Below, piece after piece: positions 9,246 through 38,765 of a stretch of DNA of 40,749 bases. This DNA is from Caldifarciminota bacterium (GTDB lineage: Bacteria; Hydrothermota; Hydrothermia; B15-G9; WFZT01). The stretch's first letter is position 1, and the number at the start of each line of letters is the position of its first letter. Made by a program: the position numbers and the translations under genes. The DNA lies in NCBI GenBank assembly GCA_015489415.1, contig WFZT01000246.1, forward strand, positions 1 to 40,749. The letters run 5' to 3'. The notes under the pieces were generated by a model. It was given only the letters and a program-made list of their open reading frames with translations, did not search any database and was not told the DNA's origin.

Positions 9246-9422
9246 ACCTCACTTATAACCGAAGGTCAGTTGGTAACTTCCATTCCTTCCTCAGGGGAAG
9301 GTGGGGATCTCAATACCTGTTATATCCTAATTTTTAACGAATCCATCAATTTTCTTCTCACTCTATTAACCTCTGCGAAAGGATAACCAGGGTGTGATAT
9401 TTTCAGATAGGCTTTTACCCCC

Positions 9423-10789: not shown

Positions 10790-10818
10790 ACTATAATCCC
10801 ACCTCTGTTAAAAGTCAA
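10790..10818 (-). promoter_or_regulatory. Promoter of the slyD-type gene
   Basis: Minus-strand TTGACT (10818-10813), 17-nt spacer, TATAGT (10795-10790). This leaves a leader of about 30 nt that carries the ribosome site. The target-site repeat of the mobile element (10818-10826) starts on the last base of the -35 hexamer. Confidence 0.65.
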
Positions 10819-10826
10819 ATCACAGA

Positions 10827-10948
10827 GAGCTTGTTCGAAAAAATTAAAAAGTTATTAGATTTATAAAATGAATTTCCCCACCTTTCTCCTTTCCCCACGC
10901 ACGAAATGCGTGGGGGAAGTTGGGAAGGGGGAATTTCCAAACACTCTC
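10827..10948. mobile_element. MITE-like palindromic element, copy 2
   Basis: A 122-bp element with left end GAGCTTGTTCGAAAA and right end (reverse complement) GAGAGTGTTTGGAAA, 11 of 15 bases matching. The core hairpin (10891-10918) has arms TTCCCCACGCA/TGCGTGGGGGAA around CGAAA. It is flanked by AATCACAGA (10818-10826) and TATCACAGA (10949-10957), an 8/9 match. From 10958 to about 11125 I see no gene or structure. Confidence 0.7.
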
Positions 10949-11129
10949 TATCACAGAGCATCCTGCACAAAAATTAGGTCTTCATATAATCTTGATTTGT
11001 GGGGCGAGAAATATAAATTTTCCCGGCTACCAAAACACTACCTGGGATACAGAGAAATGACATTTCGATTGAAAAATTTAAAATAAAAGCCTCCGCCGGA
11101 TTTTACCTGCAAATTGGGAGAAAGGGACC

Positions 11130-11239
11130 TATGAATTTTTGATGAAAATTTAAATGAAGCCCCTCTCCTGTATCCTCTCCCCGCAAACAAATTTATGCGG
11201 GGAGAGGATCATTTTGCGTTTGAAAATATTCGAACAGGT
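11130..11239. mobile_element. Degenerate MITE-like element, copy 3
   Basis: The hairpin at 11172-11209 has perfect 14-bp arms (ATCCTCTCCCCGCA / TGCGGGGAGAGGAT) and a 10-nt AT-rich loop. It is followed by TTTGAAAATATTCGAACAGG, which resembles the right end of the family. The left end is unclear and no target-site duplication can be found, so limits are approximate and the copy is probably old. The 70 bases after it show nothing. Confidence 0.5.
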
Positions 11240-11323
11240 TAAGGCCAAACTAACACAGAGAGAAGAACACATCCCTCTTGGAAATCAAAAATCTAAATTT
11301 CCTACCAAGTCCAAGTATCTTTA

Positions 11324-11664
11324 ATTCCCCCCTCCTATCCCTGACGTCACCCACGAATTTCTGGATAATAACACCTTATCCCTTGCCACGTCTTCAAAAA
11401 GGTGTACTACGCTCAATATTTGAACACTCTCTTTATACGGTATAAACGAATATATCCTTTCGGTAAAATTGCTGATTTAGTGCGAAAAATCGAATTTCTC
11501 GCCCAGATTGCATTGTATAAATATACATGGCAAGCAAAAACATGGGTGATGTCAGGTCAGCCTCCTATCCTCCCCCCACGCACTTCGTGCGTGGGGGGAG
11601 GAATAAGGTGGGGGGCAAATTTTTCATTGAAAATCAAAGGTTTTGAAATTTTTCGAACAGGCTC
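11324..11664. mobile_element. MITE-like palindromic element, copy 4, split by another element
   Basis: The element is in two pieces, 11324-11340 and 11561-11664. Joined, they reproduce copy 1 in inverted orientation: ATTCCCC, CCTCCTATCC, the 15-bp-arm hairpin (11569-11601, loop TTC), and the 50-nt right arm ending CGAACAGGCTC. It is flanked by exact 9-bp repeats GTATCTTTA at 11315-11323 and 11665-11673. The left GAGC end seen in copy 1 is missing here; the element begins at ATTCCCC. The 50-nt right arm differs at one position from that of the copy at 20039-20088. Confidence 0.72.
11341..11560. mobile_element. Second, unrelated 220-bp MITE-like element nested in copy 4
   Basis: Inserted into the element above. 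The ends are CTGACGTCACCCA on the left and, reverse-complemented, CTGACCTGACATCACCCA on the right; the right end carries one extra CTGAC. The 10-bp target CCTCCTATCC is duplicated exactly (11331-11340 and 11561-11570). Removing the insert and one repeat restores the sequence of copy 1. No ORF of note is present. It contains a small perfect palindrome TTTATAC-G-GTATAAA (11432-11446) and TGTATA-AA-TATACA near 11515. Confidence 0.72.
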
Positions 11665-11696
11665 GTATCTTTATGGTCTTTTGCGTCGGATGGAAT

Positions 11697-11702
11697 TAAA
11701 AT
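11697..11702 (+). promoter_or_regulatory. -10 box of the NUDIX gene, probably leaderless
   Basis: TAAAAT lies 7 nt before the ATG at 11710 and no Shine-Dalgarno sequence is present. The -35 position (11674-11679, TGGTCT) is a poor match but would directly follow the target-site repeat of the mobile element (11665-11673). Confidence 0.4.
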
Positions 11703-11709
11703 TTTGGGT

Positions 11710-12186
11710 ATGAAAAGAGAATATCCGGAAATGCCCATCGTATCTGTTGGAGGTCTCGTTGTAATGGGTAACATGTTTCTTCTCACAAAAAGAGCGAAAG
11801 AACCGCTGAAAGATGTTTGGACTTTACCGGGTGGTGCCGTAGAGTTGGGTGAGAGACTTCCGGACGCTATAGTTCGTGAAATTAAAGAAGAGTGCCAGAT
11901 TCAGGCACGGCCAATTGGAATTATTGAAGTGTTTGAGCAAATTTTTAGAGACGATAAAGGGAGAGTCAAATTTCACTATGTAATTGTGGATTTCCTCCTC
12001 GAATACGAAAGTGGAATAGCAAAGGCCTCATCGGACACCGCCGAGCTAAAATGGCTCACATTGGAAGAGCTTGGAAAATATAATCCTCCGGCAAGGGCAG
12101 TCAGTGTAATAAAGCGTGGTCTTGAGGTTTATAAAAAGCTCAGGGCTCAACCTGAGGCAATTTTACCGTTAATAAAAACCGACTGA
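11710..12186 (+). CDS. NUDIX hydrolase
   Basis: Hydrolyses a nucleoside diphosphate linked to another group; the substrate is not predictable. The 158-residue product has the NUDIX box at residues 42-64: GAVELGE, seven residues, then REIKEECQI. The Gly usually found in the EExGU part is replaced by Gln63; the catalytic Glu residues (57, 60, 61) are kept. The overall form with VSVGGLVVMGNMFLLTKRAKEPLKDVWTLPGG resembles ADP-ribose-type or MutT-like enzymes. The ATG at 11710 is preferred to a TTG two codons earlier because of the family N-terminus and the -10 box position. The last 40 nt overlap the convergent amidohydrolase gene. Confidence 0.88.
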   Translation: MKREYPEMPIVSVGGLVVMGNMFLLTKRAKEPLKDVWTLPGGAVELGERLPDAIVREIKEECQIQARPIGIIEVFEQIFRDDKGRVKFHYVIVDFLLEYESGIAKASSDTAELKWLTLEELGKYNPPARAVSVIKRGLEVYKKLRAQPEAILPLIKTD

Positions 12187-13583
12187 ATTTTGAATTCTGG
12201 TGAGGCCCTATCAAGGACCACAAAGTCCGCAACATAGCCGTCTTTCAGCGCCCCCTTAAGGTCCTCCTCAAAGGAAAAATAAGCACCGGCAGTTGTATAA
12301 AGACGCAGAGCCTCTTCAAAACTGATAGGATCAATGGGATGATAGAGAGCCCCTCTAATCCCGTACTGAGGTGACGGTGGCATGGCATCAGAGCCGAAGG
12401 CAACTTTTATGCCAAGTGACAACATTTTTTTAAATGGATTATTGAGCTTCCAGAGTCTATCGCCGAGATACTCACGGTACATTCCATCCTCCCCTCCCCA
12501 TCTTTCCACAAAATTAGGCTGGGATGATATCAAAATCCCCATGCTCTTTGCAAGTTTCAGGTCCACCTCTTCTGGAAACTCAAAATGCTCAATCCTGTGC
12601 CTTAAATAGTTCCCGCCTTCGAGGGCATTTTTAAAGGCTTCAAGAGATGTTCTTATTGCCCGGGTACCGATAGCATGAATAAGGAGCTGAATGCCATTTT
12701 CCTGAGCTCTTTTAATAAGATTCTCAAGTTCTTCTCGTGTCTTCAAAAGTTTTCCACTGTGTTTCTCCCCTACGTAATTTTCGAAAAAGGCAGCAGTTTT
12801 CCCGCCAACCGAGCCATCTGTAAAAATTTTAACTCCACCTATTCGCAAGACCGTGTTGCCAAACCCACTTCGTATACCAAGCTTTATCAGGTTTTCAAGG
12901 TCATTTTCATAAAAGTTAAAATAGACACGAATCTTTAGGAGTCCTGCATCGTTGAGCTCTTCATAGGCGCGAAATGCCGTTACATTGCCAAACTCGTGAA
13001 CTGAAGTAATCCCCAGGTCTATCATCTCCTCCTGGGCTGTGAGAATTGCAAGTTTAATTTCCTCAAATTCTGGTGGAAAGTATTCGTTGATTTTCAGAGG
13101 AACTTCCTCAAGGAGCAGACCGGATTTTGAATCAACGCCCGGAGTTTTTCGGGGCAAAAGCTTTAGTGCGGCTGAGTTGGCAATCGCAATGTGGCCACAT
13201 ACTCGCCTCAAAATCACAGGGGTGTCACCGGTAACGTTATCCATATCTTTTTTTGTTATAAATCTTTTCTCATCCCATGTGCTCTGGTCAAATTCTTCGA
13301 AAATAATTGGGGGCCTGTAGTTGCCACTTTTTACAACGGCTTCAATAAATTCAAGAGCGTCTTTAATGCTCTTCGTTTCCTTCAAGTTTGGCCTCGATAT
13401 AAAAAGCCCATACTGCCATAGATGTGTGTGTGCATCAATAAATCCCGGGATCACCACGTCGAATACTTTCGCATCACCAGGCAGGGTTTCACTTCTCTCC
13501 AGCAATCCGTGATTAATTGTGAAACCTACGTCATCAACAAATTTGCCGTCTATGAATGCCTTTTTTGCAATAAAAGCTTTCAT
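12147..13583 (-). CDS. Amidohydrolase family protein (YtcJ-like, Amidohydrolase_3 type)
   Basis: A 478-residue metal-dependent hydrolase with an early beta-sandwich part, then VIPGFIDAHTHLWQYG, in which His52 and His54 are the first metal ligands. Further ligands are suggested by LLIHAIGTRAIR, RHRIEHFEF and AFGSDAMPPSP. The C-terminal strands (DLKGALKDGYVADFVVLDRASPEF) close the sandwich. YtcJ-like enzymes cleave C-N bonds of amides or formamides, but the natural substrate here is unknown. It starts within the stop of the M23 peptidase gene (ATGA overlap) and is the last gene of a seven-gene operon. Its 3' end overlaps the NUDIX gene tail to tail. Confidence 0.87.
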   Translation of the reverse strand: MKAFIAKKAFIDGKFVDDVGFTINHGLLERSETLPGDAKVFDVVIPGFIDAHTHLWQYGLFISRPNLKETKSIKDALEFIEAVVKSGNYRPPIIFEEFDQSTWDEKRFITKKDMDNVTGDTPVILRRVCGHIAIANSAALKLLPRKTPGVDSKSGLLLEEVPLKINEYFPPEFEEIKLAILTAQEEMIDLGITSVHEFGNVTAFRAYEELNDAGLLKIRVYFNFYENDLENLIKLGIRSGFGNTVLRIGGVKIFTDGSVGGKTAAFFENYVGEKHSGKLLKTREELENLIKRAQENGIQLLIHAIGTRAIRTSLEAFKNALEGGNYLRHRIEHFEFPEEVDLKLAKSMGILISSQPNFVERWGGEDGMYREYLGDRLWKLNNPFKKMLSLGIKVAFGSDAMPPSPQYGIRGALYHPIDPISFEEALRLYTTAGAYFSFEEDLKGALKDGYVADFVVLDRASPEFKIQSVFINGKIASG

Positions 13584-14377
13584 CCTGAAAGGTAGTTTAT
13601 GGGGTTAACTGGCTTTCCATTTTTCCAGATTTCATAGTGCAAATGGGGACCCGTGGAGAGGCCAGTATTTCCAACAAGTCCGATAAGATCACCTTTTTTC
13701 ACGATGTCACCGGGTTTGACAAGCACCTTAGAAAGGTGGCCATAAACGGTTTTATAAATGTCTCCATGTGAAATAACGACCATGTTGCCAAATCTTTTGC
13801 TGTAGGTGACTTTTACAACGATTCCATTTGCAGGCGAGATTATGGGAGTTCCGGTCTGGGCAGCTATGTCAACTCCTCTGTGAGAGGCCGTGAAGCCCCT
13901 CGTAATGTAGCCTTTTACAGGCATTCCATAAGGGGTGTAAACATTTGCCTTCTCAGCCTTAATAATTTCCTGCTCGACAGGATTTGTAGCCTTAACATCC
14001 ACTGTATTGGCTTTTTGCGCCTTCTTTGAAGGTTTTGAGTTAATCTTTGCGGCCAGCTTTTCGATGTCAAAGGGCGGTGGCGCGTTTTGCACACCGAGCA
14101 TGTTTTCCACCTTCTTCCGAAATTGTGACAGTTCCTCCAGTTTTTTCTCGAGAACCACTACCTTTTCATTCTCTTCCCTGAGCCTTTTGTTTTCATTAAT
14201 TAAGGCGTGCAATCTCCGTTCGGTTTTGACATATCTGTAGTGAGTGTAAAAAGCGGCACCAACAATGATGAGAATCACTATTCCGGTGACAATAAAAAGT
14301 TTCATCAACCATGAGGGAATAAAACGGTTGATGACCTTATTTTTGGACACAATTATTATTTCGTAACCCTTTTTCAT
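13580..14377 (-). CDS. Membrane-anchored M23 (LytM) peptidase
   Basis: Peptidoglycan endopeptidase or a LytM-type activator. The 265 residues comprise a cytoplasmic N-terminal stub, one transmembrane helix (about 24-43), a coiled coil (about 50-97), a linker, and the C-terminal M23 domain (about 150-265). All zinc and catalytic positions are visible: His166-x3-Asp170 (SHRGVD), His214 in VYGH, and His245/His247 in GPHLHYEI, so it should be active. It lies 32 nt downstream of fmt and overlaps the amidohydrolase. It is a paralogue of the M23 protein that opens the operon (19010-19918). Confidence 0.9.
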   Translation of the reverse strand: MKKGYEIIIVSKNKVINRFIPSWLMKLFIVTGIVILIIVGAAFYTHYRYVKTERRLHALINENKRLREENEKVVVLEKKLEELSQFRKKVENMLGVQNAPPPFDIEKLAAKINSKPSKKAQKANTVDVKATNPVEQEIIKAEKANVYTPYGMPVKGYITRGFTASHRGVDIAAQTGTPIISPANGIVVKVTYSKRFGNMVVISHGDIYKTVYGHLSKVLVKPGDIVKKGDLIGLVGNTGLSTGPHLHYEIWKNGKPVNPINYLSG

Positions 14378-14409
14378 TGCTTAAATGGTAATTTGGGCAG
14401 AGGGAACGT

Positions 14410-15345
14410 TCAAAGAATTTTCTTACGGTAGCCCCTTAGAAATTCCTCCGCCTTCATAATTCTTTTCCCCTGAGGCTGTATCTCGAGTATTTCAACCATA
14501 AAATCGAGGGCCTCTACAAGCAGTCTACCCCCTGAGACGTGCATTTTGCCTGGCTCTCCCCCCTGCTCTTCTGCCACTTTTGCCCTGATGAGCTTCGCCA
14601 TCAGAGGACCAAATTGATCCTTCGCACCGGGCCTGGTGGAGAGTGCATTTATCTTACACTTTACTTTTTCTGCTTTATCATCCCAGCTGATCCAGAGCTC
14701 TTCGCGCATAATCTTTTTCGCATAGCTTGGCTCGCCGGACTGGGGCACCGGTTTCAGCTCTCCACTCAATATCCGCGGTATACTTGAGAGAGTAAGATGA
14801 GCACCAACCCTGGCAAGTCTCTCCATAAGTTCCGTCTTAATCTCCGTATCTCCGATCTCGACTTTTTCCTGGGAGATGATGGGACCGGTATCAAGTCCCT
14901 CGTCCATTACCATCAAGCTTACTCCTGTTTCTTTCTGGCAATCCATCATGGCGCGCTCGATGGGTGCGGCACCGCGGTACCTGGGCAAAAGCGATGGATG
15001 GATGTTTAGCGGATATATATCAGGTAATTCAAGCAGTTTTTTTCTTAAAATTTTTCCATAATCTGCGAGAATTATAAAATGAGGCATATATCTTCTGAGA
15101 GTGTCAATAAAAGCTTCGTCGTTGGGATTCTCTGGCTGGAAAACATCAATACCCGCATCTCTGGCAATGATTTTAACTTCCGGGTCCTTTAATTTTCTTC
15201 CCCTACCCTTGGGTCGTGGTGGGAGCGTGACCACGGCCTTAAAAGGCAAGCCGTGTGACAGAAGCTCCTTGAAAACGAGGGTTGCAAAGTCACCGGAGCC
15301 GAAAAAGATGAAGTTTAGCCCATGGAATGGCGCTGTTGACTCCAT
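14410..15345 (-). CDS. fmt: Methionyl-tRNA formyltransferase
   Basis: Formylates initiator Met-tRNA using 10-formyl-tetrahydrofolate. The 311 residues include the N-terminal transferase fold (FIFFGSGDFATLVFKELL) and the catalytic triad Asn114, His116 (PLNIHPSLLPRYRGAAPIERA) and Asp152 (DEGLDTGPII). The C-terminal tRNA-binding domain begins near residue 207 (ISWDDKAEKVKCKINALSTRPGA). The start at 15345 overlaps def by 31 nt. No closer in-frame start codon was found, although the first eight residues are longer than in E. coli Fmt. The def-fmt pair is a classic arrangement, since deformylase removes what Fmt adds. Confidence 0.95.
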   Translation of the reverse strand: MESTAPFHGLNFIFFGSGDFATLVFKELLSHGLPFKAVVTLPPRPKGRGRKLKDPEVKIIARDAGIDVFQPENPNDEAFIDTLRRYMPHFIILADYGKILRKKLLELPDIYPLNIHPSLLPRYRGAAPIERAMMDCQKETGVSLMVMDEGLDTGPIISQEKVEIGDTEIKTELMERLARVGAHLTLSSIPRILSGELKPVPQSGEPSYAKKIMREELWISWDDKAEKVKCKINALSTRPGAKDQFGPLMAKLIRAKVAEEQGGEPGKMHVSGGRLLVEALDFMVEILEIQPQGKRIMKAEEFLRGYRKKIL

Positions 15346-15845
15346 TCTCTTAGAAGTTCTACCCGTTCCTCTGGCGGGAGATGATCAATGAAGAGTACAC
15401 CATCAAGGTGGTCAAGCTCATGTTGAATAACTCTCGCAAAGAGCTCATCTGCCTCAAATTCCCTTTCTACAAGCTTTTTTCGCCTCAGGATCAGGGTCTT
15501 CACAACAATTTTCCTGGGTCTCGTCACATTGGCATACAATCCAGGAATTGAAAGGCACCCTTCTTCAAATTCACTCTCTCCATAGGTTTCGACAATCTGC
15601 GGGTTTATAAAAACCATGGGCTTTTTGGCAATTTCGAGGTATTCGGCATCCACCACAAATAAACGGATGGATTTTCCGACCTGAGGAGCGGCAAGGCCAA
15701 TACCATTGGCCATCTTCATGGTAACTTCCATCTTCCTGGCCAGATTGATAATTTCATCATTGAGGTCTTCGATGGGCCTGGCCTTTTCCCGAAGGACCTT
15801 ATCTCCCAGGATTCTAATGGGTAAAACGTCTTTCTTCTCACTCAT
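15315..15845 (-). CDS. def: Peptide deformylase
   Basis: Removes the formyl group from nascent proteins. In 176 residues all three motifs are present: GIGLAAPQ (48-55), EGCLS (95-99, metal ligand Cys97) and QHELDHLDG (141-149, ligands His142 and His146, catalytic Glu143). The ATG overlaps the yajC stop by 4 nt, giving translational coupling, and the 3' end overlaps fmt. Confidence 0.96.
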   Translation of the reverse strand: MSEKKDVLPIRILGDKVLREKARPIEDLNDEIINLARKMEVTMKMANGIGLAAPQVGKSIRLFVVDAEYLEIAKKPMVFINPQIVETYGESEFEEGCLSIPGLYANVTRPRKIVVKTLILRRKKLVEREFEADELFARVIQHELDHLDGVLFIDHLPPEERVELLREWSQQRHSMG

Positions 15846-16204
15846 TTCTTCTCATCAGCCTTCTTCTTTTCTTCGGTTTCAGGATTTAAAACACCTCTGA
15901 TGGCTGACTTATCCACCTTTATCACAGTGTTTTGTGCTACTTTAAGGCTAACTACGTTGTTATCAATTTTTTGCACTGTTCCGATTATTCCGCCGCTGGT
16001 AATCACGCGATCGCCCTTTTTAAGGGCATTTAGCATAGCCTTCCTCTTTTTCTCCGCCCTCGACTGTGGATAAATGAGAAGAAGGTAAAAGATCACAAAA
16101 ATGAAGATGAGTGGCAGAAGGGCCTTCATCAGGTCACCGCCACTCTGTTGTTGCTGCGCCATTAATGGAGCTGCCATTATAAAAATTAGACTTAGTTTTT
16201 TCAT
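15842..16204 (-). CDS. yajC: Preprotein translocase subunit YajC
   Basis: Accessory subunit of the SecDF-YajC complex. The 120-residue protein has a hydrophobic N-terminus (MKKLSLIFIMAAPLMAQ) and a main transmembrane helix (about 29-45, LLPLIFIFVIFYLLLIY). The diagnostic cytoplasmic segment follows: PQSRAEKKRKAMLNALKKGDRVITSGGIIGTVQKI. A charged tail ends the protein. The first hydrophobic stretch looks like a cleavable signal, which E. coli YajC lacks. GGAGAGGAG precedes the ATG. It stands 14 nt after the protease/barrel fusion gene and overlaps def. Confidence 0.94.
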   Translation of the reverse strand: MKKLSLIFIMAAPLMAQQQQSGGDLMKALLPLIFIFVIFYLLLIYPQSRAEKKRKAMLNALKKGDRVITSGGIIGTVQKIDNNVVSLKVAQNTVIKVDKSAIRGVLNPETEEKKKADEKK

Positions 16205-16218
16205 ATCTCCTCTCCTTT

Positions 16219-19008: not shown

Positions 19009-19009
19009 A

Positions 19010-19918
19010 TTAATCGTACAGAGCAGTATCAGGGATTATGTATTTGATGGGGTTAACGGGTCTGCCCATGACGCGAACTTCATAATGGAGGTGAGGGCCA
19101 GTTGAGCGGCCCGTATTCCCTACATAGCCTATGATCTGGCCTCTCCGGACAAACTGGCCCTGTCGCACGGCCGCACGGCTACAATGACCATACCTTGTGG
19201 TAACTCCATAACCGTGGTCAATCTCAATCATCAATCCGTAACCTCGAACCCATCTTACGGTTTTAACAATGCCATCCGCAGGTGCCACAATTGGTGTGCC
19301 AACAGGGGCAGAAATATCTATTCCATCATGATGCTTGATCTTACCTGTGAAGGGGTCGCGTCTAAAACCAAATGGGGATGTCAGGATTCCACTTGTCGGA
19401 TAAATAGAAGGGGTATGCCTTCTCAATCTCTCGTCTCGGGCAAGCTTGGTGTGAATGCGGGATAGGCTCTTCAGCTCAAAATCGGAATATTTGAGCATCC
19501 TGTTTAACTCGGTATCAATATTGAAAAGTTCTTTATCGAGTGTGTCCTTTGGAATATCAAGATTACCACCGATACCCATCTGTTTCTGGGCAGGTGGAAT
19601 AAGAGGGAGTTCCGCCACGGTCCTGATCTTGTTGTCCCATTCGTAAATAGAATCAATCCTGTGCTGGATCATGGCCACCTTTGTCTTCATGGCATTGAGT
19701 GCCTGCTTGAGCTTCGCATTCTCCGCCTCAAGCTTAACCTGTTTATGGTAATCTACCTCAAACTTTACGTATCTGTAAGTAGCATAGCTAACAGCACCAA
19801 ACAACAGGACAAGACCTGCGAGAAATAGCTTGATTTTGGCTGTTGTAAACTTGATTTCACGTGGTAAAGAATGGGAATCCTGTGGTATGATTTTTATGTC
19901 GTATTTCACTCTTTTCAT
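19010..19918 (-). CDS. Membrane-anchored M23 (LytM) peptidase, first gene of the operon
   Basis: The 302-residue protein has a cytoplasmic stub (1-30), a transmembrane helix (31-47), a coiled coil (about 55-95), a linker and a C-terminal M23 domain (about 172-295). Zinc and catalytic residues are complete: His197-x3-Asp201 (HHDGID), His245 (TRYGH) and His276/His278 (GPHLHYEV). The domain order matches cell-wall hydrolases that act during growth and division. It is paralogous to the 265-residue protein at 13580-14377. A strong promoter with an overlapping palindrome lies directly upstream, so this gene probably leads the operon through the protease/barrel gene, yajC, def, fmt and beyond. Confidence 0.9.
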   Translation of the reverse strand: MKRVKYDIKIIPQDSHSLPREIKFTTAKIKLFLAGLVLLFGAVSYATYRYVKFEVDYHKQVKLEAENAKLKQALNAMKTKVAMIQHRIDSIYEWDNKIRTVAELPLIPPAQKQMGIGGNLDIPKDTLDKELFNIDTELNRMLKYSDFELKSLSRIHTKLARDERLRRHTPSIYPTSGILTSPFGFRRDPFTGKIKHHDGIDISAPVGTPIVAPADGIVKTVRWVRGYGLMIEIDHGYGVTTRYGHCSRAAVRQGQFVRRGQIIGYVGNTGRSTGPHLHYEVRVMGRPVNPIKYIIPDTALYD

Positions 19919-19937
19919 GGCGGAAAACTCAACCTTT

Positions 19938-19966
19938 AATATAAATTCGCGAATTTATAATGTCAA
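19938..19966 (-). promoter_or_regulatory. Strong promoter with 20-bp palindrome (candidate operator)
   Basis: Minus-strand TTGACA (19966-19961), 17-nt spacer, TATATT (19943-19938). TATAAATTCGCGAATTTATA at 19940-19959 is a perfect 20-bp palindrome filling the spacer and most of the -10 box, a position suited to a dimeric repressor. The direct repeat of the adjacent mobile element begins at 19966, touching the -35 hexamer. Confidence 0.65.
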
Positions 19967-19976
19967 GCAACGATTG

Positions 19977-20088
19977 AGCTTATTCCCCCACCTTTTCCTC
20001 CCCCACTCACAAAGTGAGTGGGGGAGGAAAAGGTGGGGGCAAATTTTTCATTGAAAATCAAAGGTTTTGAAATTTTTCGGACAGGCTC
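19977..20088. mobile_element. MITE-like palindromic element, copy 5 (best preserved hairpin)
   Basis: A 112-bp element flanked by exact 11-bp direct repeats AGCAACGATTG (19966-19976 and 20089-20099). Its core is a perfect inverted repeat with 26-bp arms and an AAA loop (19985-20010 / 20014-20039). The right 50 nt (20039-20088) match copy 4 at 49/50 positions and end CGGACAGGCTC. The left end, GAGCTT if the last repeat base is included, is joined directly to ATTCCCCC, so the GTTCGAAAA part of that end is missing. The exact flanking repeats suggest a recent insertion. Confidence 0.8.
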
Positions 20089-20099
20089 AGCAACGATTG

Positions 20100-20320
20100 G
20101 GGGTGAATGGAAATTGTTATCCACTTACTGGTCTCCTTCACCCACTTTGTGGGTATAGGACAAAACTTTCGAGAGGAATTTCCTTCAAAAGCCGACAATT
20201 TTTCTCAGCAATGAGTTAGAACCGAATGTGTCGAAAGGAAATACACATACCGTTTCCAAAAAGAGCAGTTCATCCATAATCATGTTGCTCTGACGGGGAA
20301 TTTGGATAAAAATTAAATGC
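20100..20320. other. Intergenic region before the alpha-mannosidase gene
   Basis: No gene is seen. A small hairpin CCCAC-TTT-GTGGG (about 20142-20154) may be a decayed element core. Just before the next gene, TTGCTC (20285-20290), 17 nt, AAAAAT (20308-20313) is a weak promoter candidate whose start point would coincide with the ATG at 20321; no ribosome site is present. Confidence 0.35.
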
Positions 20321-23359: not shown

Positions 23360-23389
23360 TTTCGACCTGAAGTTGTAAAGCTTGATTCC

Positions 23390-23418
23390 TTGATGGTATT
23401 TAATATGCGTTGTAAAAT
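23390..23418 (+). promoter_or_regulatory. Promoter of the octahaem cytochrome operon
   Basis: TTGATG (23390-23395), 17-nt spacer, TAAAAT (23413-23418). This predicts a leader of about 55 nt ending in AAGGAGG 9 nt before the ATG. A second candidate (TTGTAA at 23410 with TTAATA at 23433) overlaps it. Confidence 0.45.
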
Positions 23419-23479
23419 TTTATCGATGATTTTTAATAAATAGTTCTTTGAATCAAAAATTCTCAAGGAGGCATAATAT

Positions 23480-25126
23480 ATGAAGGGTAAAAAAAGAACG
23501 TGGGTGGTGTTAGCCTTGATTTTTGCTGGGGGCTTGCTCCACTCTGCAAGTGTTAAGGGGGTCAAACTAATTCCACCTTACAACAGTCTTGACCTCCTCA
23601 ATACGAAAAATGTCCCTCCGATTACAGTGGACCACAGCAAGATCAAGGCACTGCAAAAACCTTTTGCCACCGGGCCTGATGTAACTAAGGCATGCCTGCA
23701 GTGTCATTCACAGGCTGCAAAACAGGTGATGCATACATACCACTGGACATGGCTCACAAAGGACAAAGACGGTCACTATCGTGGAAAGGGCTTCTTTATC
23801 AACAACTTTTGTATTTCAATTCTCTCTAACGAACCACGATGCACAAGCTGTCACGCTGGGTACGGATGGAAGGACAAGAACTTTGATTTCAAAAACGAGA
23901 ACAATGTGGACTGTCTCGTTTGTCACGACCAAACTGGGAAATATAAGAAATTCCCTGCTGGTGCTGGACATCCTGTTTATAAACCCAAGGTGTTCCTCGG
24001 CAAAAAGTGGCTTCCACCTGATCTTTCCTACATTGCTCAGCACGTAGGCTTACCGGGAAGAAGGAACTGCGGAGCATGCCATTTCTACGGTGGTGGTGGG
24101 GACAATGTGAAGCATGGCGACCTCTCCTCTGACCTTCTCAATCCGACGAAGGATATAGATGTTCACATGGATGCAAAGGGACTGAATTTCTCCTGTACAA
24201 AGTGCCACACCACCCATCAGCACATGGTTGCCGGCAGATACTATGAGAGATCAGCGGGAATCGAGCACAGATTGGCTCTGCCCAAGCCAACAAAGAACAT
24301 GCTCGGATGCGAGAATTGTCACGGGACAAGACCCCACAAGATCAGGATTCTGAATAACCATACCACCAAGGTTGCATGCCAGACCTGCCACATTCCGTAT
24401 TTTGCTAAAAAGAGAAAGACCAACCTGTGGTGGGATTGGTCCACTGCTGGGAAATTCGATGCTCAGGGGCACAAGATTCATAAGCACGATTCTGAAGGCT
24501 ATCCAACTTATAAGACCGAAAAGGGAACCCTCGTGTGGGCAAGAATGGTTAAGCCCATCTACATGTGGTACAACGGTAACTTTGAGTATGGCTACATAGG
24601 AGAGAAGATCGATTCACTGTGGATCGAGGTTAATATGGGAGATTCTGTAGTTAAAGCTGTATATATAAATAAGCCCCTTGGAAGTCCAAAAGACCCCAAT
24701 TCCAAGATTTATCCCTTCAAGGCACATTTCTCTAAGCAGCCTTACGATCCTGTTCAAAACATACTCGTGGTTCCTCATCTCTTTGGGCCTAAAGGGTCTG
24801 GCGCATTCTGGGCCGATTTCGACTGGAAGAAGGCTATCGAAACCGGAATGAAGTATGCCGGCCTCCCATGGAGCGGAAAGTACGGATTTATCAAAACAGT
24901 ACAGTTCTATACAATCTCACACCAGGTGTCACCCAAGGAAAAGGCTCTCAAATGCGCTGACTGTCACGTAAAGAACGGACGACTTGCTTACGTGCAGGGT
25001 ATTTACATGCCTGGAAGAGACAGATTCAAGCTCATCGAAATTCTCGGATGGCTTGCAGTGTTCGCAACTCTCGTAGGTGTTGTCATACATGGTGGAATTC
25101 GTCTGTTTTCCAAAAGGGGGGAATAA
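23480..25126 (+). CDS. Octahaem c-type cytochrome, tetrathionate reductase (OTR) family
   Basis: A periplasm-facing multihaem oxidoreductase. The 548 residues begin with a signal or anchor (about 8-24) and contain exactly eight CxxCH motifs: C72, C121, C145, C197, C239, C277, C300 and C492. The segment EPRCTSCHAGYGWKDKNFDF around haem 2 is typical of this family, in which Shewanella OTR uses a lysine-ligated active-site haem; Lys131 or Lys133 are candidates. OTR reduces tetrathionate and also nitrite and hydroxylamine in vitro, so the natural substrate is open. Unlike soluble OTR it ends in a transmembrane helix (about 520-540, ILGWLAVFATLVGVVIHGG). It is followed 3 nt later by a cytochrome b gene. 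Confidence 0.92.
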   Translation: MKGKKRTWVVLALIFAGGLLHSASVKGVKLIPPYNSLDLLNTKNVPPITVDHSKIKALQKPFATGPDVTKACLQCHSQAAKQVMHTYHWTWLTKDKDGHYRGKGFFINNFCISILSNEPRCTSCHAGYGWKDKNFDFKNENNVDCLVCHDQTGKYKKFPAGAGHPVYKPKVFLGKKWLPPDLSYIAQHVGLPGRRNCGACHFYGGGGDNVKHGDLSSDLLNPTKDIDVHMDAKGLNFSCTKCHTTHQHMVAGRYYERSAGIEHRLALPKPTKNMLGCENCHGTRPHKIRILNNHTTKVACQTCHIPYFAKKRKTNLWWDWSTAGKFDAQGHKIHKHDSEGYPTYKTEKGTLVWARMVKPIYMWYNGNFEYGYIGEKIDSLWIEVNMGDSVVKAVYINKPLGSPKDPNSKIYPFKAHFSKQPYDPVQNILVVPHLFGPKGSGAFWADFDWKKAIETGMKYAGLPWSGKYGFIKTVQFYTISHQVSPKEKALKCADCHVKNGRLAYVQGIYMPGRDRFKLIEILGWLAVFATLVGVVIHGGIRLFSKRGE

Positions 25127-25129
25127 AAA

Positions 25130-25726
25130 ATGAAAAAGGTCTATCTTTATAGAATTTTTGAAAGGCTCTGGCATTGTATCCAGGCAATTTCCATAATAAT
25201 GCTCATTCTTACCGGATTTGAGGTGCACGGAACCTGGCACATCTTTGGATTCAGAGAGGCCCATTATCTGCACGAGATTTTCGGTTGGACACTTGTTATA
25301 AACACAATCTTTGGACTTTTCTGGTGGATCACCATAGGACAGTGGAAACAGCTATTCCGCAAGGACAGGATAGAGGAATTCAAGGCAGTAATCAGATTTT
25401 ACACATACGGAATCTTTAAGGGTGAGCCTCATCCTGGTGAGAAAACACCCGAGAACAAGTACAACCCGCTCCAGAGAATTACCTATTTAGGAATAGTGTT
25501 CTTCCTTGTTCCGTATCAGGTAGTGATGGGAGTACTCTATTACTTTGCTCCTGATTTACCGAAGATCGGGCTACATTGGGGTGTAAGGACAATTGCTGCG
25601 CTTCATCTGATCGGGGCATTCCTGTTCCTTGCCTTTGTAATAGCACACATTTACCTTGCAACGACCGGCCATACGATTTTCTCTTACATAAAGGGGATAA
25701 TTACTGGCTGGGAAGAAGTGGAATAG
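25130..25726 (+). CDS. Cytochrome b561-type membrane subunit, partner of the octahaem cytochrome
   Basis: The 198-residue protein has four hydrophobic helices (about 15-33, 48-67, 118-138 and 153-178). Histidines suit two b haems: His16 in ERLWHCIQ, the HYLHEIFGW pair, and HLIGAFLFLAFVIAH with a final GH. The fold resembles the cytochrome b of formate dehydrogenases, Ni-Fe hydrogenases and thiosulfate reductases. It probably passes electrons between the quinone pool and the octahaem protein. It lies 3 nt after that gene, with AAAGGGGGG before its ATG, and a strong terminator follows. Confidence 0.9.
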   Translation: MKKVYLYRIFERLWHCIQAISIIMLILTGFEVHGTWHIFGFREAHYLHEIFGWTLVINTIFGLFWWITIGQWKQLFRKDRIEEFKAVIRFYTYGIFKGEPHPGEKTPENKYNPLQRITYLGIVFFLVPYQVVMGVLYYFAPDLPKIGLHWGVRTIAALHLIGAFLFLAFVIAHIYLATTGHTIFSYIKGIITGWEEVE

Positions 25727-25735
25727 ATTTTAGTG

Positions 25736-25766
25736 AGGGGGCGGCGCCCTTCGGGCGCCGCCCCCT
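25736..25766 (+). terminator. Intrinsic terminator of the cytochrome operon
   Basis: Perfect 14-bp arms with a TTC loop (AGGGGGCGGCGCCC / GGGCGCCGCCCCCT), followed by TTAT. It lies 9 nt after the cytochrome b stop codon. Confidence 0.8.
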
Positions 25767-25775
25767 TTATCCTCC

Positions 25776-25805
25776 TTGATTCCAACCATCCTGCTAATTT
25801 AAAAT
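25776..25805 (+). promoter_or_regulatory. Promoter of the P-loop kinase gene, probably leaderless
   Basis: TTGATT (25776-25781), 18-nt spacer, TAAAAT (25800-25805). The ATG at 25812 lies 6 nt after the -10 box and no ribosome site is present. Confidence 0.55.
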
Positions 25806-25811
25806 CCCATT

Positions 25812-26516
25812 ATGCAAACGGTCTATATCCTCATCGGCCTCCCAGGCTCCGGTAAAACCACATACGCTAAGGAGCTCATAGAAAAAGACCCAGAAAACAC
25901 ACTCAGAATCTCCATGGACGACATCCTTCAGATGGTAAGCTTCTACAGATTTATCAGAGACAATGCCCCTTTATACCACGAATTCGAATCCTCGATTTAC
26001 ATAACGGCCCTCGTGCGGGGTTTTAACGTGGTCGTTGATCGTACCAATGTTGATAGGGAAACAAGAAAAAGATTCATCCTACCTGCGGTGAAAGTTCGCG
26101 AATTAGCCAACCTCATTTTCTCAGAGTGGCAGGAGGAGAGGATGAGCCTCTTTCGCGAGCCAGATGAGATAATAATCAAGAAATTATTTGAGAAACTGGA
26201 ATTTGATGAGACATCTTTAGAACATGCCATCAAAGAGGAGTTTAGAAAATTCTATATTCAATCGCAGATGCCATCACTATTTGGGGAACAAAAAGATTTT
26301 TACACGCATCTGAAAAGGGTTAAGAATCTCAAGATTGTCGGCGTCTTTTTTGACCTACCGATAGAAACCTGTATCAAAAGGCGTGTTGAAGACCCGGATG
26401 TGGTAAGAAGAGGTGAGGGAATAAACTGGGAAGAGGTGATATTAAGACTCGCTGGGAAATTAGAGGAGCCAGAGATGTGTGAGGGATTCGACGAGCTCAT
26501 AAGAATTAAGGAATAG
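25812..26516 (+). CDS. P-loop ATPase, predicted kinase (AAA_33/polynucleotide-kinase-like)
   Basis: The 234-residue protein opens with a Walker A motif GLPGSGKTTYAKEL (residues 9-22). This is followed by RISMDDIL, the typical acidic acceptor motif, and VVVDRTNVDRETRKRFI, the DxTN motif of polynucleotide-kinase-like and zeta-toxin-like kinases. The region around ETCIKRRVEDPDVVRRGEGIN resembles the arginine-containing lid. The middle (about 95-150) is a helical insert without recognisable features. RNA, nucleoside or small-molecule substrates are all possible. No partner gene is evident: it has its own promoter and ends 283 nt before the next gene. Confidence 0.82.
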   Translation: MQTVYILIGLPGSGKTTYAKELIEKDPENTLRISMDDILQMVSFYRFIRDNAPLYHEFESSIYITALVRGFNVVVDRTNVDRETRKRFILPAVKVRELANLIFSEWQEERMSLFREPDEIIIKKLFEKLEFDETSLEHAIKEEFRKFYIQSQMPSLFGEQKDFYTHLKRVKNLKIVGVFFDLPIETCIKRRVEDPDVVRRGEGINWEEVILRLAGKLEEPEMCEGFDELIRIKE

Positions 26517-26573
26517 GCCTCTTAAATTATTCAGATTTGGAAAATAAAGGTTGAGCCAATACATTTTATCCCA

Positions 26574-26757
26574 GAGACTGTTCGAGAATTTTTATAGATT
26601 TACGAGAGGAATACCCCCCACCTCATCCTCCCCCCGCATAAATTTGATTGCGGGGGGAGGCAAGGAGATGGGTTACTTCTGCCAAAATCGATCTTCCTTC
26701 CACAAATTTTATCGACAATAAGAGATCATAAAAGCAAATTTTTGGAAAATTCCAGAC
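26574..26757. mobile_element. Degenerate MITE-like element, copy 6
   Basis: It begins with GAGACTGTTCGAGAATTTTT, a variant of the family end. A core hairpin follows (26627-26660) with perfect 12-bp arms CCTCCCCCCGCA/TGCGGGGGGAGG and a 10-nt loop. The right end is not clear; the limit given is where ATTCCAGA (26749-26756), a 7/8 match to ATCCCAGA at the left edge, precedes the next promoter. No gene is present between 26517 and 26799. Confidence 0.45.
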
Positions 26758-26758
26758 C

Positions 26759-26787
26759 TTCAAAATCTCGCATGGGGGCAATATTAT
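26759..26787 (+). promoter_or_regulatory. Candidate promoter of the flippase/birA/coaX/thyX operon
   Basis: TTCAAA (26759-26764), 17-nt spacer, TATTAT (26782-26787). The predicted start is about 6 nt before the ATG at 26800, so the leader is very short and lacks a ribosome site. Confidence 0.4.
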
Positions 26788-26799
26788 TTTCAATCCTCT

Positions 26800-27786
26800 A
26801 TGAACCTCTTGAGGAAGCTTAAAAAAGGTATATTTATCGGGATTGTGCTGTGGGTGGCAGCTGCTTTTGTTATCTTCATTTTTACATACTCAGAAGAGAC
26901 GCTTCGTAGTCTAAAATCCATCCGAGTTGAGTATTTCTTTCTCACGCTCATCCTTTACATCACAAGCCTCCTCGTGGATTCGTACAAATTCAAAATGATT
27001 ATAAAAGGCATGACCGGCAAGGACCTGACCCTCGGATACGTCCTGGAAGTTTTTCTTGTGGGCTTCTTTTTCTCTGCTTCCACTCCTTTTCAGGGAGGCG
27101 GATTTGCCTTCCAGATGTACCTTCTATCGAGGAAAGGGGTAAGTGCAGGAGAATCTTCGGCTGCTATCACTTTGAAGGGTATGACAAACTTTCTCTTTTT
27201 GCTCCTCCTTGCACCATTTCTTGTCTATAGTCTCGGCATCTCCTGGGCATATAAACCTCTGAAAGTTGTTATCCCTGCTGTCGCTGCCATAGTTGCCTTT
27301 ATCTTCATTTTTGCCAGATGGCCGATCTTGATTAGAAAATGGAGGAAATACAGGATTGTGGCCTGGTTTTTAAAGGAACTCGAGATTTTCAACGAATCTT
27401 TCGGTTCCCTCATCAGCCTTAGAAGATGGCGAATGTTGTTGGTCATATCTGTTCTAACCATGATTTCCGTGCCACTCCATCTTTTAATGGTTCCGGCCAT
27501 CTTCTACGGAATCGGTGTTAAGGTTCCCATTCTCAAAGCAATTACCCTGCACATTCTCACACAGGTTCTATTCATTTACAGCCCTACACCGGGGGCTTCA
27601 GGTGTAATGGAACTCGGAGCTGCATTTGTATTCTCAAGCATCTGTCCTAAGCCGCTTCTTGGAATTTACACTGTGATCTGGCGCTTCTTCACATACTATC
27701 TGAGTGCTTTTATCGGTGGCATTCTGGCTGTTAAAAACTTTAAATTCTTAATTGAGGAGTACGAGGAGACCCATGATAAATTTTGA
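26800..27786 (+). CDS. Flippase-like integral membrane protein (LPG synthase TM / UPF0104 family)
   Basis: The 328-residue protein has about eight transmembrane helices starting at residues ~12-30. The conserved segment FFSASTPFQGGGFAFQMYLLSRKGVSAGESSAAITLKG and the late SPTPGASGVMELGAAFVF motif are signatures of the UPF0104/LPG_synthase_TM family. Family members without the soluble synthetase domain are thought to move lipids or lipid-linked sugars across the membrane; the substrate here is unknown. Its last 14 nt overlap the birA start. It heads a run of cofactor genes (birA, coaX, thyX) with no obvious functional link. Confidence 0.88.
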   Translation: MNLLRKLKKGIFIGIVLWVAAAFVIFIFTYSEETLRSLKSIRVEYFFLTLILYITSLLVDSYKFKMIIKGMTGKDLTLGYVLEVFLVGFFFSASTPFQGGGFAFQMYLLSRKGVSAGESSAAITLKGMTNFLFLLLLAPFLVYSLGISWAYKPLKVVIPAVAAIVAFIFIFARWPILIRKWRKYRIVAWFLKELEIFNESFGSLISLRRWRMLLVISVLTMISVPLHLLMVPAIFYGIGVKVPILKAITLHILTQVLFIYSPTPGASGVMELGAAFVFSSICPKPLLGIYTVIWRFFTYYLSAFIGGILAVKNFKFLIEEYEETHDKF

Positions 27787-28471
27787 CCGTTATAAAATAA
27801 TGAAACTCACGAAGGTGGAATCTACTAACGATGAGGTGCTGAATTTGCTACTTTCGGGGGTAAACCCACCGGTTGTGGTTACAGCAGAGGAGCAAACAGG
27901 TGGAAGAGGAAGAGCCGGACATAAATGGCTCTCAAAGCCGGGAGGTCTCTATTTTTCACTCGGCATGCGCTCTAAAGGTCTTGAAACTGATTCAAAACTC
28001 ATCGTTCTTGCATCGCTACCTGTTGTTGAAACCCTCAGATATTTTGGACTGAACCCGCGGATAAAGATTCCCAATGACGTTTACATCGGGGATAAGAAAA
28101 TTTCTGGAATTTTAGGTGAGAGAAAATCGGATTTTCTTATTATAGGGGTCGGAATAAATGTTAACCAGGACAGCTTCCCCGATGAGATAAAACACCTTGC
28201 AACCTCGATGTTCATTGAGACAGGTAAGGTTTTTGATAGAAACAATGTCCTTTACACATTCTTGAAGGAGTTCAACCGATTGATAGATTCACCCGACCTG
28301 GCTTATGATAGATGGGTGAAATATGTAAGTGTGATTGGTAAAAAGGCTCGCTTTACATACAAAGGGAAGTCCTTGATCTGCGAAATAAAAGCTATCGATA
28401 AGGACCTGAATCTCGAGACAGACATGGGAAAGTTTAACATCTATGAAATTTTTGGATTTGAGGAACTATGA
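27773..28471 (+). CDS. birA: Biotin--[acetyl-CoA-carboxylase] ligase, without DNA-binding domain
   Basis: Attaches biotin to carrier proteins such as the one at 1211-1726. The 232 residues contain GGRGRAGHKWLSKPGGLYFS (biotinyl-AMP loop), KIPNDVYIGDKKISGILGE (the KWPNDV-type motif with catalytic Lys) and a small C-terminal SH3-like part. The N-terminal helix-turn-helix of E. coli BirA is absent, so it is a monofunctional ligase. The ORF is open seven codons further upstream, but the ATG at 27773 has GAGGAG before it and gives the family N-terminus MINFDRYKIMKLTKVESTND. It overlaps both the flippase-like gene (14 nt) and coaX (4 nt). Confidence 0.93.
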   Translation: MINFDRYKIMKLTKVESTNDEVLNLLLSGVNPPVVVTAEEQTGGRGRAGHKWLSKPGGLYFSLGMRSKGLETDSKLIVLASLPVVETLRYFGLNPRIKIPNDVYIGDKKISGILGERKSDFLIIGVGINVNQDSFPDEIKHLATSMFIETGKVFDRNNVLYTFLKEFNRLIDSPDLAYDRWVKYVSVIGKKARFTYKGKSLICEIKAIDKDLNLETDMGKFNIYEIFGFEEL

Positions 28472-29214
28472 TTGCAGTTGTTGATGCCGGAAATTCCACC
28501 GTGAATGTCGGGCTTGTTGAAAATGGTAGGGTGATTTTTAAAACCTTTATTGAGACAAAAAAGGTGCACAAGGGACTTGACCTACCCCAAAAATTTCAGC
28601 CAGAAGTTGCAATTTTCTCATCTGTGGTGCCTGAAATAAATGATGTGCTCACGGATTCATTGAAAAAATGGACAGGTAAAGACCCTATACAACTTACATA
28701 TAAAACCGCAACGGGTGTTAAAATTCTTTATCGGAATCCCTCAGAATTAGGTGCGGACAGGATAACCCATGCTTATTTCATTAAAAAGTTCGTAAAAGAG
28801 CCTTCGGTGGTGGTGGATATTGGAACGGCGATAACCATCGATTTCATTGGTGGGGATGGTACCTTCGCTGGGGGTGCCATTCTTGCCTCCCCTGAGACAA
28901 TTTTGCATGGACTTGCTCAAAAGACCTCAAAGTTAAAGGAGATTGACCTCTCAATGTGGCCTCAAACATTCATTGGGAGAAGCACATCTGAGTGTCTTCG
29001 TATAGGACTTCTCCACGGCACCGTGGGCTCAATACTTTATATCACCGAGAGTATTGAGAATGAGGTTGAGATGGACGTTAAAAAATTCCTTACAGGGGGA
29101 GGTGGGGAACGGTTTAAGGAAAAGCTCGTGGATTTTCATTATAATCCTGACCTGAACCTTTTGGGGCTTGCTGCTGCCCTTGAGGAAATCCAGAAAACGG
29201 AGAGGAAATTATGA
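28468..29214 (+). CDS. coaX: Type III pantothenate kinase
   Basis: Phosphorylates pantothenate, the first step of coenzyme A synthesis. The 248 residues belong to the ASKHA fold: VVDAGNSTVNVGLVENG (phosphate 1 loop), ELGADRITHAYF (pantothenate-binding GADR motif) and VVVDIGTAITIDFIGGDGTFAGGAILAS (second phosphate loop). GGGGERF follows near the C-terminus. It starts in the birA stop (ATGA) and overlaps thyX by 4 nt. The pairing of birA and coaX is common in bacteria. Confidence 0.95.
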   Translation: MIAVVDAGNSTVNVGLVENGRVIFKTFIETKKVHKGLDLPQKFQPEVAIFSSVVPEINDVLTDSLKKWTGKDPIQLTYKTATGVKILYRNPSELGADRITHAYFIKKFVKEPSVVVDIGTAITIDFIGGDGTFAGGAILASPETILHGLAQKTSKLKEIDLSMWPQTFIGRSTSECLRIGLLHGTVGSILYITESIENEVEMDVKKFLTGGGGERFKEKLVDFHYNPDLNLLGLAAALEEIQKTERKL

Positions 29215-29927
29215 AAGACCTTGATATGCCACCAAATGCAATAAAAATACTTGATAAAGGCTTTGTCGCTCTTCTTGATCACATGGGGGATGACACAACT
29301 ATTGTCAACGCTGCTCGTGTGAGCTTTGGCAAAAGGGTGGATAAGATGTCGGAAAAGGATGAGAAGCTTATTCGGTACCTTTTGAAAAACCGGCACACCT
29401 CCCCATTCGAGCACGTTCAATTCCAGTTTCACATAAAATGTCCTCTATTTGTCCGCAGCCAGTGGCACCGGCACAGGACTTGGAGTTACAACGAAATTAG
29501 CTCCCGATACACCGAAGTAAAGGAAGAATTCTACGTCCCTGCTATGTTTAGAAAACAATCCCCATCCAACAAGCAGGCCTCTATTGAGGAGCCGGCTGAT
29601 GAGTATTGCTTTAATGTCTATGAAGGTAAGGAAACTCCCACGGTTGAGGCCTATATCGAGTCGTGCAAACTGTCTGTGAAGCAGTACAGGGAGCTCCTCA
29701 AAGCCGGGGTCGCAAGGGAGCTTGCAAGGGCAGTCCTGCCGCAGGCCATGTACACTCAATTTTACGGCACGGTTGACCTCCACAACCTGCTCCATTTTAT
29801 CGAGCTCAGAATACATCCCCACGCACAGTGGGAAATTCAGCAGTATGCAAAGGCCCTTTTAGAGCTCATAACCCCTATTGTTCCGGTTACCGTTAAAATC
29901 TGGAAAGAGCTTAAAGGGATGGATTAA
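29211..29927 (+). CDS. thyX: FAD-dependent thymidylate synthase
   Basis: Makes dTMP from dUMP with methylene-tetrahydrofolate and reduced FAD. The 238 residues include the ThyX signature RHRTWSYNEISSRY (87-100), the upstream SPFEHVQFQFHIKCPLFVRSQW, and the C-terminal LPQAMYTQFYGTVDLHNLLHFIELRIHPHAQWEIQQYA region that binds FAD and dUMP. It overlaps coaX by 4 nt. No thyA is seen in the window. Confidence 0.96.
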   Translation: MKDLDMPPNAIKILDKGFVALLDHMGDDTTIVNAARVSFGKRVDKMSEKDEKLIRYLLKNRHTSPFEHVQFQFHIKCPLFVRSQWHRHRTWSYNEISSRYTEVKEEFYVPAMFRKQSPSNKQASIEEPADEYCFNVYEGKETPTVEAYIESCKLSVKQYRELLKAGVARELARAVLPQAMYTQFYGTVDLHNLLHFIELRIHPHAQWEIQQYAKALLELITPIVPVTVKIWKELKGMD

Positions 29928-29929
29928 AA

Positions 29930-30319
29930 ATGAAGAAATTGTTACTCTACCTTGCATTTACACTGCCATTGCTGGCAGGAAGTAAAATCACGGTCAAGGT
30001 TGATTCACTCACATACGTTGTGGCACTCGACACGATGAAAACAACCCCAAACGGAATGGTCCCTGTTATCTCAATCGTAAAGGCTTTAAACCTTCCAGAC
30101 AGTACCAGATACAGATTTGTGGGAGATGATGGATATCACCCGGAGAAAGATATTCCGTATAGCAAACTCAAATACGGTTTTATCAATCCAGAGACCAGAA
30201 ATTTGAAATGGACTTCAGAAGCTGATCTCACAAAGTGCTACAACGTGAAGAAAGTAAAAATAATTCAGGTGGTAAGATATCCAAATAAAAACAACACACA
30301 GAAATTCCATCGAGAATGA
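29930..30319 (+). CDS. Small exported protein of unknown function
   Basis: Not recognised. The 129 residues start with a signal peptide (MKKLLLYLAFTLPLLAG) predicted to be cleaved around residue 17-18. The mature ~110 residues are polar and beta-prone (SKITVKVDSLTYVVALDT, GMVPVISIVKALNLPD, RYRFVGDDGYHPEKDIPYSKLKYGF), with a single Cys near the C-terminus. It lies 2 nt after thyX and is translated from the same mRNA, so it may be a housekeeping envelope protein rather than part of the following accessory cassette. No lipobox is present. Confidence 0.72.
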   Translation: MKKLLLYLAFTLPLLAGSKITVKVDSLTYVVALDTMKTTPNGMVPVISIVKALNLPDSTRYRFVGDDGYHPEKDIPYSKLKYGFINPETRNLKWTSEADLTKCYNVKKVKIIQVVRYPNKNNTQKFHRE

Positions 30320-30439
30320 CCATTAAAAAAGTAATCAAGCAAGTCAACTTGTTGATTGCAAAAGTACACTTTCCTGACTGAAATCATATAGAAACATTCA
30401 AGATCCTCCACTTTTTGATCCCGTTTTTTGTTTGATATG

Positions 30440-30503
30440 CAAGTGTGTTTGAAAAATTTCAATTTTAAGGGAAATTTAAGGGGGACATTTTCAAACGACG
30501 TTC
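30440..30503. mobile_element. Reduced MITE-like element, copy 7
   Basis: A 64-bp segment between exact 9-bp direct repeats TTTGATATG (30431-30439 and 30504-30512). GTTTGAAAA near the left edge is matched by TTTTCAAAC near the right, the inner part of the family's terminal repeat, but the G/C-rich hairpin is gone. The right repeat ends exactly where the -35 hexamer of the next promoter begins. The bases between 30320 and 30430 show nothing else. Confidence 0.5.
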
Positions 30504-30512
30504 TTTGATATG

Positions 30513-30541
30513 TTGAAAAACTACACTTTTGTTACTATAAT
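30513..30541 (+). promoter_or_regulatory. Promoter of the XRE/ImmA/PIN cassette with inverted repeat
   Basis: TTGAAA (30513-30518), 17-nt spacer, consensus TATAAT (30536-30541). An imperfect inverted repeat flanks the -10 box: CACTTTTGTTAC on the left and GTAAAAATGTG on the right. This is a likely autoregulatory site for the XRE protein. TGAGGTGA precedes the ATG at 30583. Confidence 0.65.
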
Positions 30542-38739: not shown

Positions 38740-38765
38740 ATTTCAAAAACAAAGGAGATGTGAAA

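Follow-up and report, generated by a model that had tools for sequence, protein, structure and literature searches.

Short inverted-repeat elements of a Caldifarciminota genome adjoin the -35 hexamer of predicted sigma70-type promoters, probably through promoter selection by an IS5-family transposase

The stretch of DNA analyzed here, the 40,749-nucleotide contig WFZT01000246.1 of a Caldifarciminota bacterium (GenBank assembly GCA_015489415.1; the window), contains short elements with terminal inverted repeats (TIRs) whose target duplications adjoin the -35 hexamers of several genes. Throughout this work promoters were predicted from sequence, and with respect to these predicted promoters insertion of the element family is targeted at a constant distance from the -35 hexamer, with an apparent requirement for a correctly spaced -10 hexamer. 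The elements are non-autonomous miniature inverted-repeat transposable elements (MITEs) that would be moved by an IS5-family transposase, and we think it probable that this transposase selects sigma70-type promoters and that the MITEs were inserted via promoter-bound RNA polymerase.

The genome of the window (G000) is a metagenome-assembled genome (MAG) of 2.57 Mb in 289 contigs with 8% estimated contamination, of which about 0.56 Mb (approximately 22%), in stretches picked around element ends, was read directly. A TIR score of at least 18, calculated from bases inside the element only, defined 154 unique outward flanks, in which a promoter was called when at least 9 of the 12 hexamer bases matched -35 and -10 at a spacer of 16-18 bp, its start offset being counted outward from the element end. 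Such a promoter was found at offset 9 (26 flanks) or 10 (13 flanks), i.e., at the edge of the duplication, in 39 of the 154 flanks, compared to 0-2 promoters (on average about 0.2) at each of the other offsets from 1 to 75. At random intergenic positions, represented by 182,230 intergenic flanks from the fetched stretches of this genome, the frequency was 0.36%, corresponding to 0.55 expected versus 39 seen (binomial P ~1.7e-59). Many promoters of the peak are near consensus, e.g., TTGACA-17-TATAAT at C171, and most reach an open reading frame within a short distance. When relaxed scoring was applied to elements with clean duplications, 21 of 31 had a promoter at offsets 8-12 on one side, compared to 2-4 in control windows.

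The first-pass annotation had noticed the contact between elements and -35 hexamers in the window, had left open whether insertion is guided or only insertions sparing the core promoter survive, and had called for the distance distribution to be compared with random intergenic positions. Guided insertion is supported by the sharp peak at zero, which is found in the window's genome, in two congeners and, for the -35 hexamer alone, in a further genome (G060). Survival of random insertions, with promoter- or gene-breaking ones lost, would agree with the intactness of every retained promoter and with the mostly intergenic position of the ends (37 of 154 lie inside open reading frames of at least 90 codons in the window's genome). 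However, elements inserted at a distance of 5-60 bp from the -35 hexamer on its upstream side should then persist too, yet offsets 11-75 are at background. Because the peak is only one to two bases wide, we reject survival alone, to which we concede almost no chance of being correct.

Where a -35 hexamer with at least 5 of 6 matches occurs at offset 9 or 10, a properly spaced -10 hexamer follows in 33 of 46 cases in the window's genome, compared to 8 of 78 at other offsets (P 2e-12); in the sister genome (G003), the respective values are 16 of 30 and 5 of 49 (P 5e-5). This enrichment argues that the whole promoter is selected, probably in its polymerase-bound state, and RNA polymerase is a plausible guide. 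The outward logo, which reads TTGA at positions 9-12, would also be expected if the target were a short TTGA motif beside the duplication that merely resembles a -35 hexamer, and this might apply to G060. In the window's genome and its sister, however, such a motif is mostly contradicted by the -10 hexamers described above, and it is present on one flank only, so that we hold this explanation to be very improbable. A symmetric target motif was ruled out, as the distal flank is without the motif. Moreover, the offset of the -35 hexamer is independent of spacer length (r = -0.05, 40 sites), which places the anchor on the -35 side. Promoters are found next to either end type (25 of 90 and 14 of 61 ends in the window's genome, 6 and 14 ends in the sister genome), so that insertion is not strictly oriented.

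A similar peak was found in other genomes. The sister genome harbors the same TIR family, and 20 of its 105 ends have a promoter at the peak; among its flanks without homology to the window's genome, 11 of 55 had such a promoter (control mean 0.28). In a third species of the same genus (G001), whose elements carry the variant TIR GAGGCTGTTCG, 6 of 10 ends have a promoter, at offsets 10-12. The variant was seen at loci L145, L147, L151, L153, L155 and L161, with the offset at 10-12 instead of 9-10, and this shift suggests that the promoter register varies with the transposase. Likewise, in G060, a MAG labelled Deltaproteobacteria (Meg22_1012_Bin_341), a -35 hexamer with at least 5 of 6 matches lies at offsets 9-11 in 10 of 16 ends (control 0.45). 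One locus of this MAG (L326, 1475-1517) holds a 43-bp minimal element, barely extending beyond its two TIRs, with outward TTGACA/TTGACC hexamers on its two sides. In unrelated genomes, most exact TIR matches look like chance occurrences within genes.

That the promoter is itself a part of the element was rejected, as the flanks are unique, different genes follow and empty sites hold the promoter. Upstream of the sucC-like gene (38760-40322), the window has the empty target site TCTCAGATT (38703-38711, plus strand) and the promoter TTGACA-17-GAAAAT (38711-38739, plus strand) without an element, reading TTCTCAGATTTGACAG, whereas the sister genome has a 124-bp copy flanked by this 9-mer, reading TCTCAGATT, the 124-bp element and then TCTCAGATTTGACAG. 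A second clean case is provided by L232 of the sister genome compared with C240 of the window's genome, and a third by L170 of the sister genome. The intact promoter at empty sites indicates that the promoter is older than the insertion, and the comparison identifies the 9-mer as a true target duplication. At C260 of the window's genome (10628-10752) and L282 of the sister genome (~5141), the same promoter may have received a different insertion in each of the two species, the duplications being different but at the same offset.

In the window itself, the contact was exact to the base at three genes for which it had been proposed. The FKBP/slyD-type gene (10285-10755) has the promoter TTGACT-17-TATAGT (10790-10818, minus strand), whose -35 hexamer TTGACT (10813-10818) is met from 10819 onward by the duplication ATCACAGAG (10819-10827 and 10950-10958) of a 122-bp MITE (10827-10948, plus strand). 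At the M23 peptidase gene (19010-19918), with the promoter TTGACA-17-TATATT (19938-19966, minus strand; -35 hexamer TTGACA at 19961-19966), the duplication AGCAACGATT (19966-19975 and 20089-20098) begins at 19966 and flanks a 113-bp MITE with one shortened end (19976-20088, minus strand). Upstream of the XRE regulator gene (30583-30924) lies a 64-bp minimal element, barely longer than its TIRs (30440-30503, strand not assigned), whose duplication TTTGATATG (30431-30439 and 30504-30512) stops at 30512, directly before the promoter TTGAAA-17-TATAAT (30513-30541, plus strand; -35 hexamer TTGAAA at 30513-30518). The hydratase operon, mentioned as a further fit, agrees as well: the promoter TTGAAA-17-TAAAAT of the enoyl-CoA hydratase gene (3995-4023, minus strand; -35 hexamer TTGAAA at 4018-4023, -10 hexamer TAAAAT) is at offset 9 from a diverged element (4033-4374, strand not assigned) with the ends GAGCATGCCTGAAAATG and CGAAACAGGCTTT and the duplication CCAAGGCAG (4024-4032 and 4375-4383), and the orthologous locus of the sister genome (L177) has a family end at the equivalent place. 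This diverged element also contains another hairpin class, CCTCCCTTCC...GGAAGGGAGG, at 4137-4161 and 4250-4280. The genes downstream of these promoters belong to unrelated families.

Two further claims of the first-pass annotation had to be revised. The 124-bp MITE named copy 1 (9122-9245, plus strand; duplication ATCTCACTT/ACCTCACTT) had been listed as an exception, but it lies inside another member of the family, a 353-bp element with diverged ends (9062-9414, strand not assigned), which adjoins the promoter TTGACA-18-AATATT (9423-9452, plus strand; -35 hexamer from 9423) of the SPW-repeat gene (9497-9820) at offset 9, with 8 bp between them, and which is also found beside the same promoter in the sister genome (L172). 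Copy 1 is therefore no counter-example. The fit of the NUDIX gene is weaker than had been suggested, since the hexamer at 11674, TGGTCT, has 3 of 6 matches, while the presence of TAAAAT 17 bp further is in favor of it; the MITE beside this gene (11544-11664, minus strand) has one intact end and has lost the other, its left end, together with the matching duplication. Between the FKBP and NUDIX genes, 10827-11664 holds a cluster of three family copies, of which those near 11130-11241 and at 11544-11664 have lost one end. At 26574-26660, upstream of the LPG synthase gene, a single TIR-like end occurs together with a GC-rich hairpin similar to that at 11174-11209; no right end was found there.

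When up to 3 mismatches are allowed, the 18-mer TIR GAGCCTGTTCGAAAAATT is matched 124 times in the window's genome, compared to 6 for the reversed control, and paired ends define size classes of 122-127 bp (~124 bp) and ~353 bp, with duplications of mostly 9 bp. The family shares with MITEs the short length, the TIRs, the lack of a transposase gene, the many copies and the target duplication. The 124-bp class encloses a long GC-rich hairpin, which in the folded copies is very stable on both strands (z -4.5 to -10.6); an Rfam scan of the window gave no match. Given this stability, retention of the elements could be due to an insulating effect of the hairpins, which would shield promoters from transcription arriving from upstream; such a benefit would follow insertion and not determine its position. 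However, the hairpins were not flagged by a terminator scan of the window, the position is no different for the 64-bp copy at the XRE gene, in which the GC-rich hairpin is missing, and insulation does not necessitate a distance of exactly zero; we consider this explanation highly improbable. TIR positions 12-18 of all copies (e.g., 9133-9139 of the window) form an A-tract at about -55 to -62 of the adjoining promoter, near the distal UP-element site, and might stimulate adjoining promoters.

A putative parent of the MITEs is present in the sister genome (C168; L234, 4933-5993) as a 1061-bp element with the same TIRs (GAGCCTGTTCGAAAAATA / GAGCCTGTTCGAAAATTC), the duplication AGGGGCCGGT and a single gene for a transposase of 309 amino acids, and this element also adjoins a promoter (TTGACA-16-TATTAT). 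The only Pfam matches of the transposase were PF01609 (DDE_Tnp_1; 43.1 bits, cut-off 23) and PF13737, and its best NCBIfam match was NF033579 (IS5_2; 104 bits, E 7e-30), below the equivalog cut-off of 140. Members of the IS5 family are about 0.8-1.3 kb long, with a single gene, short TIRs and a duplication that can reach 9 bp in the IS903 subgroup, and are characterized by the signature Y(2)R(3)E(6)K. The transposase contains this signature (YKKRYIVEQVIGKVK at residue 239), along with DGTGF at 112 and DGLYG at 188, and the element agrees with the family in transposase type and in its layout of size, gene, TIRs and duplication; these features identify the putative parent as an IS5-family insertion sequence. 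Because the TIRs and the duplication length are shared, and because decayed, internally deleted copies of the insertion sequence occur in the window's genome (C124 and C128), we infer that the MITEs are mobilized by the parent transposase. The other DDE_Tnp_1 genes of the window's genome (L140-L144) were rejected as parents, having no family TIRs nearby, and a Mutator-type transposase as the source was likewise dismissed, with 0 hits in a PF00872 (Mutator) search of this genome. A search of IMG/VR revealed no relative of the parent transposase, and for 31%-identical relatives in G007 and G008 (L305, L306) the element ends were not recovered. The nearest named relative is ISAae1 (IS5 family) of Aquifex aeolicus, with a 38% identical transposase, a similar TIR (AAGCCCGTTTAAAAAA / GAGCCTGTTGAAAAAA), a 9-bp duplication (AACCAAGGT) and, on one side, TTTACA-16-TATACT at offset 9; the open-access papers searched contain no report of promoter targeting by ISAae1.

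According to the proposed mechanism, a 9-bp staggered cut would be made just upstream of the -35 hexamer, so that, with this hexamer placed at -35 to -30, the duplication would span about -44 to -35, leaving the core promoter intact. The transposition complex would dock on the holoenzyme at the promoter, probably via sigma region 4 or the alpha C-terminal domain. The region from about -44 to -35 is bound by class II activators, such as CRP, which touch sigma region 4 and alpha, and because the duplication covers this region we favor docking on the promoter-bound holoenzyme over direct reading of the DNA. In the latter case the transposase itself would recognize the promoter, by the shape or sequence of the -35 and -10 hexamers or by easy melting of the -10 hexamer, without RNA polymerase. 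Direct reading would result in the same position data with a fixed -35 offset, and is consistent with the nearly palindromic target of ISAae1 (TGTAAACC...GGTTTACA) and with the strong -35 but weak -10 hexamers of G060. On the other hand, a single small transposase would have to recognize both hexamers across 17 bp with a tolerance of 16-18 bp, the -10 dependence in the window's genome and its sister exceeds what a -35-like motif would give, and no mirrored motif is found in the distal flank, which leaves direct reading a doubtful though serious alternative. The element would gain a target where insertion is rarely harmful, and the host would keep its promoter while losing native upstream control DNA. 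For the wider proposal, namely that an IS5-family transposase independently evolved recognition of the promoter-bound holoenzyme and docks, in the manner of a class II activator, at about -44 to -35, and that this allowed its MITEs to settle along the upstream border of many host promoters, where they may have replaced native upstream control DNA, we see an even chance.

Several observations weigh against promoter selection through polymerase. About one third of the clean elements and most single ends have no recognizable promoter at the expected place, and these cases may be explained by distal ends, by old age of the copy or by true off-target insertion. An intact parent was seen once, in the sister genome, while the window's genome shows only decayed copies. 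Furthermore, the -10 matches in G060 are weak, the comparison with ISAae1 concerns one site only, and both promoter use and contact between transposase and polymerase are deduced from sequence.

In the open-access literature, promoter-targeted insertion in bacteria has so far been found reported only for Mutator-type elements, and the open-access PMC papers contained no report of such targeting by the IS5 family or by MITEs, which is not proof of novelty. The insertion sites of TnGBS, ISLre2 (p-MULT 3) and some ISKra4-group (p-MULT 4) elements precede the -35 hexamer of sigmaA promoters by 15-17 bp, and for these Mutator-superfamily elements a contact between transposase and polymerase was proposed by the authors (Guerillot et al. 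2014, PMC3942029). Similar to these systems, the present elements appear to be DDE transposons with a position-specific enrichment at a fixed distance upstream of vegetative promoters; unlike them, they have an IS5-type parent. In addition, the -35 hexamer lies 15-17 bp from the inverted repeat in the Mutator elements, but 8-9 bp from it here, flush with the duplication, a difference of about 7 bp. Insertion of TnGBS is oriented, whereas the present elements face promoters with both end types, as do ISKra4-group elements with near-perfect TIRs, which insert in both orientations (PMC3942029). Its occurrence in a second transposase family, unrelated to the first and with a register that is different and tighter, points to convergent exploitation of the transcription machinery, and the IS5-type case would offer an independent system for testing transposase-polymerase contact. 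Correia, MITEAba12 and BrickBuilt MITEs are likewise short and non-autonomous, with TIRs and strong hairpins, and are located near genes, but they carry promoters inside the element (review PMC10969869), in contrast to the present elements, which insert at a set distance from a promoter that is part of the target. Such MITEs could spread widely at little harm while rewriting upstream control regions, and their ends would mark promoters base by base in an uncultured phylum without RNA data. A more distant parallel is the yeast element Ty3, which is targeted to RNA polymerase III start sites through TFIIIB/TFIIIC (cited in PMC3942029); as a retrotransposon that depends on a eukaryotic polymerase it bears no relationship to the elements described here and serves as an analogy only, in that the initiation machinery guides integration.

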